Shown: positions 27,419-31,850 of the stretch, piece by piece | Numbering within the stretch: the stretch's first letter is position 1 | Layout of the letters: the number at the start of each line of letters is the position of its first letter | DNA from: a virus | Direction: 5' to 3' (one strand) | Length of the DNA: 34,473 nt | Virus record (IMG/VR): IMGVR_UViG_3300032516_000093 | Coordinates: 1-34,473 of that record | Translations under genes and position numbers: made by a program | The notes under the pieces: generated by a model | Databases searched by the model: none | Told to the model about the DNA's origin: nothing | The model's input: the letters and a program-made list of their open reading frames with translations, nothing else

Positions 27419-27772
27419 CCTATATCAAAATTGTGAATCATAAGTGTGTAGAGAGGCTAAAATAGCTTAACGATGTGAATCGTTCAAGCAAATTTTTCCA
27501 ACTAAAGCACACTTTTAATAAACACAATACAGGGTTAGCGAGCCTAGTTAATTTTTCGCTGGCGTGTCTTTCGGAATGGAGAGCAACAGCCAATGTCCAT
27601 TGAGTGTGCAATGGCAGGAACATAAGAAAACGACCATTGTCGTTAGTAAGATGATCTAAAAGTTTGCAGCAAGTATGTGAAAACAGGGTATGGCTTGCTG
27701 GTCGCGTAATTAGCCACTGAAGAATAATTACAAATGCGGCGAGGACGAAAGTCCCCCTTCCGAAACGCTTAA
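27409..27772 (+). ncRNA. Candidate structured non-coding RNA of unknown class
   Basis: This stretch has stops in all frames but an unusual density of hairpins. Paired arms: 27410-27416 with 27427-27433; 27442-27448 with 27508-27514, enclosing 27465-27474 with 27479-27489 (GUGA loop, one bulged C); 27534-27541 with 27556-27563 (two G-U pairs); 27597-27602 with 27609-27614; 27629-27634 with 27639-27644; 27667-27673 with 27694-27700; 27706-27712 with 27725-27731; 27743-27746 with 27751-27754 (GAAA loop). GGCTA at 27455-27459 could also pair with TAGCC at 27711-27715 in the loop of another hairpin. I could not match it to tRNA, tmRNA, RNase P RNA or a recognisable group I or II intron core. The class and exact ends are unknown. 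The strand is assumed from the neighbouring late genes. Confidence 0.5.
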
Positions 27773-27946
27773 TCGCGTGTAGTTGATATAATCAATCCAA
27801 CACTACAAGAATATTTCGGTTCAGAGTCTGGTGATGCTGTCAAGTATTTCCTATCCAAAGGTTTTGGATACCCTTGGTCTGACTCCGCTGTCAAATTAAT
27901 CAATCACTATTTAATTACTATAGAAGAGCGAAGCGATGTGGTCTGA
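27773..27946 (+). pseudogene. Start-less 57-codon protein-like segment (3' exon or gene remnant)
   Basis: The frame opens after TAA at 27770-27772 and runs to TGA at 27944-27946 with 57 codons and no ATG, GTG or TTG. The translation looks like real protein: NPTLQEYFGSESGDAVKYF, then GFGYPWSDSAVKLINHYL, with alternating hydrophobic residues and aromatic content unlike the flanking RNA. It could be a downstream exon joined to a coding sequence upstream, the remnant of a gene whose 5' part was lost, or chance. I do not recognise the family. Confidence 0.4.
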
Positions 27947-28008
27947 ACGAAAGACGAAGCGGAGTTTACGAAGCGAGTGTTTCGTGAATGACCCGGTCTG
28001 AAAGACCG
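27929..28008. repeat. CGAAGCG repeats and GGTCTGAA-type hairpins at converging gene ends
   Basis: CGAAGCG occurs at 27929-27935, 27955-27961 and 27969-27975. Two related hairpins lie among them: GTCT/AGAC at 27941-27955, and a perfect CGGTCT-GAA-AGACCG at 27994-28008. The second is inside the 3' end of the minus-strand gene. No T-run follows, so this is not a classic terminator. A role in RNA processing or bidirectional termination is possible but unproven. Confidence 0.45.
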
Positions 28009-28538
28009 ATAGTAGTATCTAACTTCTTGTAAATGCGTTTAGCAAGTTTGATAACTTCTTGATTTGTTTCTGAGCTAATGTCGACATATGGACGCAATTG
28101 CATTCTATATATTTCGTTAGAGAATGTTTCGACACCCACGACTCCAGTGAACTTCTGGAAATATAGTGTTGTAAATGCGCTAAGGCGTAGTTCTACTTCT
28201 CCGATGAGACTACTTAGTTCCTTATGTGATTCAGGATCAATATGCCTCATAAGTTTAACCTCACCCTTAGTGATATACATCTCTGTTAGTATGTGACGCC
28301 CTTCTGCTTTTTTCATGTAAATGTAGCCCGGTTGACGTACTAACATCTTGTTAGATATTAAGTCAATGCTCAATTCTCTATCTGGTAATGCATCTACAGA
28401 GAATGGACTCCATTTAATGTTCTGAACATCAAGTAATCTCGATAGTTCATAAACCCAACGATGTTTAGGATAACGGTCCCAGCATTCAATATCATCCTTA
28501 GGGATGTCGAATTCTTGCGTGTCTGTTTTTCTGTGCAT
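27966..28538 (-). CDS. Conserved-looking hypothetical protein, function unknown
   Basis: 190 residues, not recognised. It is soluble and charged with no membrane segment or signal peptide. The N-terminus is acidic and aromatic (ECWDRYPKHRWVYELSRLL). The middle is helical (DPESHKELSSLIGEVELRL), and the C-terminus is helical and basic (VIKLAKRIYKKLD). The ribosome binding site AGAGG precedes the ATG. It follows the small frame downstream of gp26 after 10 bases, so it belongs to the leftward gp26 late transcript; a role in baseplate-hub or tail assembly is only suggested by that position. Its 3' end contains two of the nearby hairpin and repeat elements. Confidence 0.75.
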   Translation of the reverse strand: MHRKTDTQEFDIPKDDIECWDRYPKHRWVYELSRLLDVQNIKWSPFSVDALPDRELSIDLISNKMLVRQPGYIYMKKAEGRHILTEMYITKGEVKLMRHIDPESHKELSSLIGEVELRLSAFTTLYFQKFTGVVGVETFSNEIYRMQLRPYVDISSETNQEVIKLAKRIYKKLDTTIGLSDRVIHETLAS

Positions 28539-28548
28539 AATATACCTC

Positions 28549-28761
28549 TTACATGTATTCCTTGGCGTTAGGATTCTGTGATTTTAATTTCTTGTTAATC
28601 ACCTTAATCATAATTTCTCTATCTTCAAAGCTTGCACCCCATAAATTATTCCATTCAATCCCTCCAGACATATGCAAGGCAATTTCTACAATCTGCTCTC
28701 TAAGAGCATATGAATCCCTGGTGTATGATTGAATAAGGTCACCTAATTGCTCAGGTGGCAA
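28549..28761 (-). CDS. Small frame downstream of gp26, probably read by -1 frameshift
   Basis: The open part from TTG (28761) encodes 70 residues: PPEQLGDLIQSYTRDSYALR, then helices ending with FEDREIMIKVINKKL. The only start is TTG, and the nearest AAGG is about 12 bases away and inside a strong stem, so independent initiation looks poor. The frame is also open back through seven more codons to the slippery site at the end of gp26. Translation by -1 shift would give a fusion of about 358 residues. Size, position and downstream W...DREI...IN-type helix recall the C-terminal extension of tail assembly chaperones (gpG/gpGT type), which is inference. Confidence 0.65.
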   Translation of the reverse strand: MPPEQLGDLIQSYTRDSYALREQIVEIALHMSGGIEWNNLWGASFEDREIMIKVINKKLKSQNPNAKEYM

Positions 28762-28788
28762 GAATATCAGTGACCTTATGAAAAATTT
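28733..28788 (-). promoter_or_regulatory. Programmed -1 frameshift signal at the end of gp26
   Basis: Read leftwards, the last codons of gp26 are GTA AAT TTT TCA TAA. A-AAT-TTT (28788-28782) is a canonical X-XXY-YYZ slippery heptamer in the right phase. Two bases later ATAAGGTCAC (28779-28770) begins a perfect 10-bp stem with GTGACCTTAT (28742-28733) across a 27-base loop. If the A/U-rich base of the stem melts, the spacing falls in the usual 5-7 base range. The -1 frame leads directly into the 70-residue frame. Confidence 0.75.
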
Positions 28789-29624
28789 ACAGGATTGAAA
28801 TCAATCTCACTCTCCCATTGATGTTCACATTTTTCACATTTAGCTGTAAATGTCCTTTTGATTCCAATTTCATTAATCTTAATGATTAGGTCATTTATAC
28901 TATCAAGGCTCTTCTTATCAATATTTTGTAGGAAATCTTTAATATATTTCGAATCTGCTACATCTACATTATTGTCCTCATCAACCACTTTAACAATACT
29001 AGAGGTTATTAAGTCAAACTTTGTAATAGCAACTTCTTTAAATCCTTTCACAAAGATTGCAGATCGTTGTTCATCGGTTAGTGATTCATTTTCTACTGCC
29101 CGTGCTAATTTTGTTTGTTCAAACTGAGCATGTAATCCCTTTAGCAAATCTGGAAACAAATACGGTCTTACAAACACTGATAATCCAGAGTCTAAATTTA
29201 TAACATATTCTAAATCAAGTTCGGACATGTTGTCTAATGCGTATTGGAGATCTAATTTAAACGTATTTTCTTGTGTACATTTTGGACACCTAAGATTTGT
29301 TTCCAATGAATCATTATATGTTGCATAACGAATTGCTGTGATTAAAACATCAATATCGTTTGTTAGCAAGGCACGCGGTTGTTTTAACGCAGGAATACAA
29401 CTCAACATTACCTCAATTAATGCTTCACCATTTAATAAAGCATCAGGATTCTTTAAGACAAGTTCATCTTTACCAGTCATAGGTAAGATACCAACTTCAC
29501 CCTTTTCGTTTAATTCAATAACACCTGGTTTGTAATAATTGCCGCCACTAGGTAATTTTAGATACATTTTGATCTGTCTAAAATATTGCTTTAACGGATT
29601 ATTCTGTTGTGTGGTTGATTCCAT
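28776..29624 (-). CDS. gp26: gp26-family baseplate hub / tail assembly protein
   Basis: 282 residues with the pattern of the T4 gp26 baseplate family: an N-terminal LPSGGNYY motif, MTGKDELVLKNPDALLNGEA, then IRYATYNDSLETNL. Two Cys pairs (CPKC near residue 116 and CEKC near residue 265) suggest a bound zinc. T4 gp26 (208 residues) is a minor hub-assembly protein. The ribosome binding site AGAGG precedes the ATG. The gene sits head-to-head with the tape-measure-like gene. The frameshift signal two codons before its stop suggests it also makes an extended form, as tail assembly chaperone genes beside tape-measure genes do. Confidence 0.85.
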   Translation of the reverse strand: MESTTQQNNPLKQYFRQIKMYLKLPSGGNYYKPGVIELNEKGEVGILPMTGKDELVLKNPDALLNGEALIEVMLSCIPALKQPRALLTNDIDVLITAIRYATYNDSLETNLRCPKCTQENTFKLDLQYALDNMSELDLEYVINLDSGLSVFVRPYLFPDLLKGLHAQFEQTKLARAVENESLTDEQRSAIFVKGFKEVAITKFDLITSSIVKVVDEDNNVDVADSKYIKDFLQNIDKKSLDSINDLIIKINEIGIKRTFTAKCEKCEHQWESEIDFNPVNFS

Positions 29625-29705: not shown

Positions 29706-31850
29706 ATGGCTGATACTACTTTTATTTCTGGCGTTGCTGATGGAGCTTTTGAAAAAGCTTTTGGGGAACTACCAGAATGGGCTTCAGAAGAAACTGCCTT
29801 AGCGATCGAGAATACTCTCAATAAGATATTAGGTGTACAATCTAAGACATTTGCACAATTACTTAAAACTTCTGCCGGCGGTGGTTCTAGTGGCGGACTT
29901 TCAAAGAAAGATGTTGAAGATACAAATAAGGAGTTAGCTAAACTCTCAAAATCAATAGCCAAACAAGTTGAAGATGCAAACAAGGCTAAAAAGCAAGCAA
30001 AATCCAAAAAAGATTCAGATGAATTGGCCCTAGCCCTAGATAAGAAAACGTCAGCCTCTGGTCAATTATGGGCACAGGTGCTTGTGAAATTAAAAGGTGC
30101 CGGCGACGCAATATTAAAATCTCAGGTACAATATTTTACAACATCAAATGATTTATTTAAATCAGGTGTAAATTTAGCAGATGGTCAGAAGGCAGGAACA
30201 TCTAGTTTAGCAACTCTACAACAGATTGTTGTAGATACAGGCCTTCGTTTAGAAACATTTCAGAAGGTAGTTGAACAATTTTCATCATCTATTAATGCAG
30301 TTGGTGTTAATAAGTTTGTTCAAACACTTAAACTCTCTAGACAAGGACTAACAGCACTTGGCTATAGCTCAGAACAACAAGCTCAACTTATTGGAACAAT
30401 GCTCGAATCTGAGAGCAATTACACTGATCTTAGAAATAAGTCAGCAAAGCAATTAACAGACGATGCTGAACGATTTGGTAGACAGGTGACAAAATTATCC
30501 CTATTTACGGGTCAATCGGTTAGTAAATTACAAGAAAATATTAGAGTTCTATCTAAATCAAACGAAGCCTGGGTAGCATCAGCGAGATTAGGACCAGAAG
30601 CAGCTAAACGACTTACAGGAATAGCGTCAGCATTCGGTGATTCCCACATTCAAGATCTAGTTCTGAAATTTGGATCAACAATGTCTTCGGCAAATGAAGA
30701 TATATTTAAATCATTAAATGCTGCCGGCCTCGGTGCTGAAGCACAAGAATTAGCTGCAACATTCAAGGCAGGCGCTGCCGGTACCTTATCTCAACAAGAG
30801 ACTATACAGAAAGCAACTGATATTGCACTAAGAATTCAAGAACAAAGATCGAAAGTTGAAGCCTTAGAAGCACAACGATTGGGTGGTAATGCCGCTGCCG
30901 GAAGTGCCGAAACATTGCTTGCAGGATTGACATCTGCCGGTCATAACTTATCAAAGGCAACAGATCCACAGGTAGATGCCGCTACCAAATCACAAGCAGC
31001 ATTATCGAGATTATCATCTGCGTTAGAAGATAAAAGTTCACTAATACAAAGAACATTCCCATTACTTAATGACCAAGTAAATCTAGCATCAAGTGCATTA
31101 GAATTGTTTAATCAAGGAATAAAATCAGCTACAGATTTACTTAATCCTGCAACTCGATCTTGGGTTGGCGTCGGAGTTCAATTAGCAGAAGTAATTGTTG
31201 GAACTATTCTTAGTTTCCAAGCATTGAAAACTACAATGAAATTAATTAATGATGTCAGGGGAATACCTAATAAAGGTGTACCAGGCACTAGCACTCCATC
31301 CGGAACGGGCGGTAAAGGTAAGTGGCTCGGCAGGGCAGCTAAAGGCGTCGCCGGCGGTGTTGGTGGCATTTTAGCTGGCATCGGATTAGATTACGCGACT
31401 GATAAATTAAAAGAATCAGGTCATGAAACAGCAGCAGCAGCTACAGATATCGCATCAAGCGCAGCATCAATGGCCGGTCTTGGTGCCACTTTAGGTAGTG
31501 TTGTTCCTATTTTAGGTACCGCTGCCGGCGCAATCGTTGGTGGTATTGCAGGTGCCGGTTACGGTGCATATAAGAATTGGGGGACAATTTCCCCATCGAC
31601 CCCTAAACCATCTACAATTGATTCGCCATCGGCTGATTCCAGTCTTAATAACGGAGAGGAAGACTCAAATAAACTTAAAAGTACCAGAGACGATACATCT
31701 GCTGCCACTACGAATAAATCCTCACAAACAAATGAGGTAAATAGTACATTAACATATCAGACCTCTGTTTTAACACAGATACTTGAAGCATCACAGAATT
31801 TAGTATCAGTTAACAGAGAAATTCTTAAATTCACAAGGGCACGAGCATAA
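29706..31850 (+). CDS. Putative tape-measure / tail-length protein
   Basis: 714 residues with the composition of tape-measure proteins: long Ala/Lys/Gln/Ser-rich helices in the first two thirds, then a hydrophobic segment near residue 490 (VQLAEVIVGTILSFQALK) and a Gly/Ala-rich hydrophobic block at about 540-625 (VGGILAGIG, then GAIVGGIAGAGYGAY). It ends with a polar linker and a helix. Its place beside gp26 and upstream of the portal, and T4 gp29 (590 residues, hub and tail length) as precedent, support the call. At roughly 0.15 nm per residue it would fit a tail of about 105 nm. No muramidase or peptidase motif was seen. The ribosome binding site is weak. An internal head or pilot protein is an alternative. 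Confidence 0.6.
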   Translation: MADTTFISGVADGAFEKAFGELPEWASEETALAIENTLNKILGVQSKTFAQLLKTSAGGGSSGGLSKKDVEDTNKELAKLSKSIAKQVEDANKAKKQAKSKKDSDELALALDKKTSASGQLWAQVLVKLKGAGDAILKSQVQYFTTSNDLFKSGVNLADGQKAGTSSLATLQQIVVDTGLRLETFQKVVEQFSSSINAVGVNKFVQTLKLSRQGLTALGYSSEQQAQLIGTMLESESNYTDLRNKSAKQLTDDAERFGRQVTKLSLFTGQSVSKLQENIRVLSKSNEAWVASARLGPEAAKRLTGIASAFGDSHIQDLVLKFGSTMSSANEDIFKSLNAAGLGAEAQELAATFKAGAAGTLSQQETIQKATDIALRIQEQRSKVEALEAQRLGGNAAAGSAETLLAGLTSAGHNLSKATDPQVDAATKSQAALSRLSSALEDKSSLIQRTFPLLNDQVNLASSALELFNQGIKSATDLLNPATRSWVGVGVQLAEVIVGTILSFQALKTTMKLINDVRGIPNKGVPGTSTPSGTGGKGKWLGRAAKGVAGGVGGILAGIGLDYATDKLKESGHETAAAATDIASSAASMAGLGATLGSVVPILGTAAGAIVGGIAGAGYGAYKNWGTISPSTPKPSTIDSPSADSSLNNGEEDSNKLKSTRDDTSAATTNKSSQTNEVNSTLTYQTSVLTQILEASQNLVSVNREILKFTRARA

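Follow-up and report, generated by a model that had tools for sequence, protein, structure and literature searches.

The closest described counterparts of the locus analyzed here are the tail assembly chaperones gpG and gpGT of phage lambda, which are produced by -1 frameshifting (Xu, Hendrix & Duda 2004; PMC5009743). In lambda, coating of the tape measure protein falls to the short form and recruitment of tube subunits to the long form (PMC5009743). T4 has for a long time been listed as exceptional among long-tailed phages, which as a rule possess such a two-form frameshifted chaperone (PMC5009743). A stimulatory RNA structure located 5 to 9 nt downstream is common, but not universal, in chaperones of the G/GT type. 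For T4, older genetics put gp26 in the hub, while the review reporting this counts both gp26 and gp51 among the hub assembly chaperones and notes that the final particle lacks gp51 (PMC3004832). More recently, the tail assembly chaperones of T4-like phages were identified by Vladimirov, Gautam & Davidson (Virology 2022), as cited in PMC10274946 and PMC12846349. According to these citing papers, a short gene together with a fused long gene takes the place of frameshifting in some T4-like phages (PMC10274946), and slippery T-rich sites are known in the TAC-N genes of T4-like phages (PMC12846349). As far as the work is represented in these citations, both the frameshift mechanism and the chaperone assignment of the gp26/gp51 family are already known; the first-pass annotation of our sequence had treated the link between the T4 gp26 family and tail assembly chaperones as unestablished, and this part of it was anticipated by the 2022 study. 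A similar arrangement has been described for the phage Adele locus (Vandenendeviridae, Andersonviridae; PMC12846349), in which, as in our locus, the -1 frame is open in all genomes and a T-rich motif is invariant. The Adele-type locus belongs to other phage families and uses the motif GTTTTT, and its likeness to our locus lies in the logic of the arrangement.

The stretch of DNA that was analyzed (the window) comprises all 34,473 nucleotides of the IMG/VR virus record IMGVR_UViG_3300032516_000093. It contains a single gene of the family PF12322 (T4 base plate protein), which scored 71.4 bits against a curated cutoff of 24.5 and also matched PHROG 150. The encoded gp26 protein carries two CxxC pairs, and its nearest named relatives belong to jumbo phages, with PA5oct at 38% identity, followed by Phosso, Atu_ph07, the 121Q/RaK2/CBB groups, and others. 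The features of the locus are as follows.

29706 to 31850, plus strand: divergent neighbor of 714 aa, possible tape measure protein (from the annotation of its RaK2 counterpart)
28776 to 29624 including the stop (coding part 28779 to 29624), minus strand: gp26 short form (TAC-N, G-like), 282 aa, PF12322 and phrog_150
28782 to 28788, minus strand: slippery heptamer A_AAT_TTT, in phase with gp26
28776 to 28778, minus strand: gp26 stop codon TAA, invariant in relatives
28549 to 28788, minus strand: -1 frame extension (TAC-C, T-like), 79 codons plus stop, counted from the heptamer
28733 to 28779, minus strand: downstream stem-loop with arms at 28770 to 28779 and 28733 to 28742

The 3′ end of gp26 reads AAT CCT GTA AAT TTT TCA TAA, with a single sense codon (TCA) between the heptamer and the stop. 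From the sequence alone, the first-pass annotation had proposed an in-phase A_AAT_TTT near the gp26 stop, a perfect 10-bp stem 2 bases beyond the heptamer, and a -1 frame that is open into a 70-residue frame starting at TTG; all three elements were recovered. The stem arms, ATAAGGTCAC (28770 to 28779) and GTGACCTTAT (28733 to 28742), are perfect complements, and the -1 frame runs without interruption into the TTG frame at 28549 to 28761. The combination goes beyond chance: among the 27 open reading frames of more than 100 codons in the window, gp26 alone combined a shifty heptamer within the final ten codons with a -1 frame that stays open for 40 codons or more. The 56-nt cassette folded with -16 kcal/mol (z of -3.5 relative to shuffled sequences).

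The resemblance to lambda gpG/gpGT drawn here is one of gene organization. Both loci comprise a short open reading frame with an in-phase heptamer at its 3′ end and a -1 extension that lacks a start of its own, from which a short and a long product are expected. The window differs from the lambda type by its larger N-domain with two CxxC pairs, by the heptamer A_AAT_TTT, and by the transcription of gp26 away from the possible tape measure gene. We consider it very probable, judging from the sequence, that -1 programmed frameshifting on gp26 makes a short and a long tail assembly chaperone. At the TAA most ribosomes would halt, and their product would be a short form of 282 residues that resembles lambda gpG (TAC-N). 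A smaller share, delayed by the stem-loop, would slip one base back on A_AAT_TTT, whereby the Asn and Phe tRNAs would re-pair with AAA and TTT; some 77 further codons would then be translated, and the resulting gpGT-like long form (TAC-NC) would have about 358 residues. If lambda is taken as the model, the domain common to both forms may coat the tape measure protein and the C-terminal domain may recruit tail tube subunits. The slippage itself, its efficiency, and the binding partners are what we infer. One observation that speaks against the frameshift reading is that A_AAT_TTT differs from the T_TTT_TTC found in other members of the family. The proposal of a frameshifted chaperone was supported by the cassette, by selection on the -1 frame, by the missing conserved start codon, and by distant cases in jumbo phages, cyanophages, and Cinqassovirus, as set out below.

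A scan of IMG/VR yielded 33 gp26 loci with 45 to 100% identity, from which 25 distinct relatives with a complete region were used for the analysis of the cassette. Within the block GTA AAT TTT TCA TAA, no base varied in any of the 25, although the codons of invariant residues directly before the block (Asp, Phe, Asn, Pro, Cys, and Glu) do vary synonymously in the same sequences. The alignment of gp26 homologs thus showed the heptamer and the open -1 frame to be kept in all of these close relatives (25/25), and no close homolog lacking the two was encountered. The extension was exactly 79 codons long in every relative in which it was complete. In this region the -1 frame contained no stop codons, in contrast to averages of 9.1 and 8.0 stops per sequence in the other two frames. 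Differences between the relatives fell mainly on third positions of the -1 frame, both after the TTG (10697 versus 5586 and 4160 at the other two positions) and ahead of it (687 versus 261 and 111). The -1 frame downstream of gp26 is under protein selection.

As an alternative, the -1 frame could be a separate small gene, translated without fusion from the TTG or by re-initiation past the gp26 stop. The window does have a TTG at codon 9 of the -1 frame, the downstream open reading frames are annotated as genes of their own in several jumbo phages, and in Pseudomonas phage Cygsa01 an ATG overlaps the gp26 stop. Against this, the TTG is common only to the window and two of its relatives (L001 and L002), and in most close relatives the -1 frame shows neither an ATG nor a GTG nor a TTG ahead of codon 39. 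The nine codons ahead of the TTG are nonetheless kept as protein in the -1 frame of the relatives. Since there is no start ahead of codon 39, the conserved first part of the extension, FFIRSLIFLPP, would lie outside any separate protein in most of them. Translation from the TTG was rejected, as this codon is not conserved while the codons ahead of it are. A separate gene also leaves the synonymous invariance of the heptamer block unexplained, and we regard it as very improbable. Ribosomal frameshifting from gp26 into the extension remains our preferred reading.

The downstream stem was compared with a null model in which the amino acids of the -1 frame were fixed and the codons chosen at random. 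All 25 relatives folded better than the null mean (mean z of -2.5), with a z of -3.6 for the window under the same null. The weakest value was that of the most diverged relative with A_AAT_TTT (L027), which is without the stem. The conserved core of the stem, GGTC/GACC, begins 6 nt past the heptamer, and pairs 12-42 and 13-41 stay paired in many relatives through A-U, C-G, U-A, and U-G combinations. In the window clade, the stem is stronger than coding requires. A downstream stem beyond the coding constraint was likewise found in 20 cyanophage sequences (mean z of -2.6), where it lies 5 to 6 nt downstream in many cases, while the signal was weak in jumbo phages with T_TTT_TTC (mean z of -0.9). 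These data also bear on whether the frames could be joined by transcriptional slippage and not by ribosomes, given that the shift region is a run of T residues (five in the window, six to seven in relatives). From general knowledge, five T residues are short for slippage of a polymerase, and ribosomal slippage accords with both the phase in which the heptamer is conserved and the stem about 6 nt downstream; joining of the frames by the polymerase is thus extremely unlikely in our estimation.

The cassette extends well beyond the window clade. In 16 named jumbo phages (PA5oct, 121Q, RaK2, CBB, Phosso, and others) and one diverged contig (L030), an in-phase T_TTT_TTC or T_TTT_TTT was found near the end of gp26, and the -1 frame continued without a stop through a tail of some 70 codons. 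The predicted sequence across the shift in 121Q is ...SHFFRVMLLQSS... In the annotated jumbo phage records, gp26 and the -1 part were never joined, the second part being listed as a separate hypothetical protein or missed. All 66 distinct gp26 loci of cyanophage type and from Aeromonas Cinqassovirus carried a heptamer as well (65 with T_TTT_TTC and 1 with T_TTT_TTT), followed by an open -1 tail of about 60 codons, which was cut by the contig end in one locus. These cassettes share with the window the gene family, the position, and the open -1 extension, and differ in the heptamer, which is A_AAT_TTT in the window clade. In Cygsa01 (L063:3303-3482), gp26 ends in TAATG, and the T-like open reading frame starts at the overlapping ATG. 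This phage has one PF12322 gene and no standard heptamer and may represent a third route, possibly with translational coupling in place of frameshifting. With the exception of T4-type phages and Cygsa01, the cassette is present in every gp26 relative examined.

T4 gp26 belongs to the same family, PF12322, as gp26 of the window; however, it lacks a slippery end, and a stop codon shortly before the end of the gene closes its -1 frame. Neither the heptamer nor an open -1 tail was found at the four T4-type loci. T4 gp51 is a PF12322 protein too, with 249 residues, the last part of which extends beyond the family domain. When profiles were compared, the cyanophage -1 tail matched the C-terminus of gp51 (after residue ~200) with 96% probability and an E value of 1.6e-9, showing homology of this part of gp51 to the cyanophage extensions. 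The long forms aligned end to end, with 100% between the window clade and jumbo phages, 98% between jumbo phages and cyanophages, and 98% between cyanophages and T4 gp51. Because the direct match between the window clade profile and gp51 was weak (12%), the probable homology of the long form of the window clade to gp51 rests on these intermediates.

Gene counts followed the same division. PF12322 occurred once in 18 of 19 non-T4 phage genomes searched via the annotated collection (the 19th, SCTP-2, was detected via tblastn only), once in each of six window-clade records of up to 362,810 bases, and once in two Cinqassovirus records. It occurred twice in T4 and T4-type records, and as three fragments where a gene was broken or at a contig end. 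T4 has two separate genes without a slippery site or open -1 frame, as opposed to one gene with a frameshift cassette in the window. On the simplest reading of the sequences, a single gene with a frameshift has been exchanged for two genes that lack it, or the reverse, and gp51 is best read as the long form, encoded by a gene of its own in T4-type phages. As for the direction of this exchange, it seems reasonably likely that frameshifting on gp26 came first and is to this day the most frequent route in the T4 supergroup (here jumbo phages, cyanophages, and Cinqassovirus) and that the T4 gp26/gp51 pair is derived, with the frameshift product fixed as its own gene. The window clade would then have swapped T_TTT_TTC for A_AAT_TTT with a conserved stem.

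In chaperones of the G/GT type, the genes sit between the major tail protein and the tape measure gene, whereas gp26 of the window adjoins a possible tape measure gene that is transcribed divergently. The neighbor had been called tape-measure-like in the first-pass annotation, a description that profile searches did not substantiate: the 714-aa protein matched neither tape measure profiles nor other families, nor T4 gp29, and its sole support is the RaK2 counterpart, which is annotated as similar to tape measure. The PA5oct counterpart (798 aa) carries an ESI-MS/MS note in its record. Among relatives, the length of the gene varied from 673 to at least 973 aa, with several copies running off the fetched stretch. 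Such variation would suit a tape measure, and the neighbor could be one. On the other side, directly downstream of the -1 extension, an open reading frame of 190 aa (27966 to 28538, minus strand) showed no significant family match. Between this frame and the endolysin gene lies an intergenic stretch of about 400 nt (27490 to 27895, most likely plus strand), which was conserved at the same place in close relatives with 67 to 81% identity. Its consensus fold from 15 sequences comprised 89 pairs, 42 of which showed changes on both sides that keep the pairing in at least one sequence. The stretch matched no Rfam family and no record in the phage collection, and it has the look of a large structured RNA that is so far undescribed.

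Since databases name the family baseplate hub, the frameshifting could be real and its products structural parts of the baseplate hub instead of assembly chaperones. The record of phage CBB annotates gp26 as a structural protein, and the older T4 genetics pointed to the hub. Yet the same review that reports the genetics assigns gp26 and gp51 to the hub assembly chaperones, with gp51 missing from the particle (PMC3004832), and the mass spectrometry notes for PA5oct concern the portal and the 798-aa neighbor, with none on gp26. The AlphaFold2 model of gp26 (pLDDT of 83) had HK97 gp13, a solved tail assembly chaperone (2ob9), as its second-ranked match among solved structures, covering 104 of 107 residues (Z of 5.6, rmsd of 5.6), a weak match on its own and level with those of unrelated chains. 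When solved structures were searched by sequence, the gp26 profile retrieved nothing meaningful, and Foldseek gave no significant match in the PDB. The -1 tail was modeled as a helical domain (pLDDT of 86) that begins at the second residue of the tail, ahead of the TTG, and returned only weak helical matches in the structure search. Products that serve as structural hub parts and not as chaperones appear unlikely, and we favor tail assembly chaperones.

A literature search on frameshifting of tail assembly chaperones in jumbo phages found no paper. As far as the literature consulted shows, the new elements are the conservation of the cassette across jumbo phages, the A_AAT_TTT variant with its conserved stem, and the joined gene model. 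For jumbo phages, this would mean that a baseplate gene has a second product which has been overlooked, and it would explain the short hypothetical open reading frame that is annotated after gp26.
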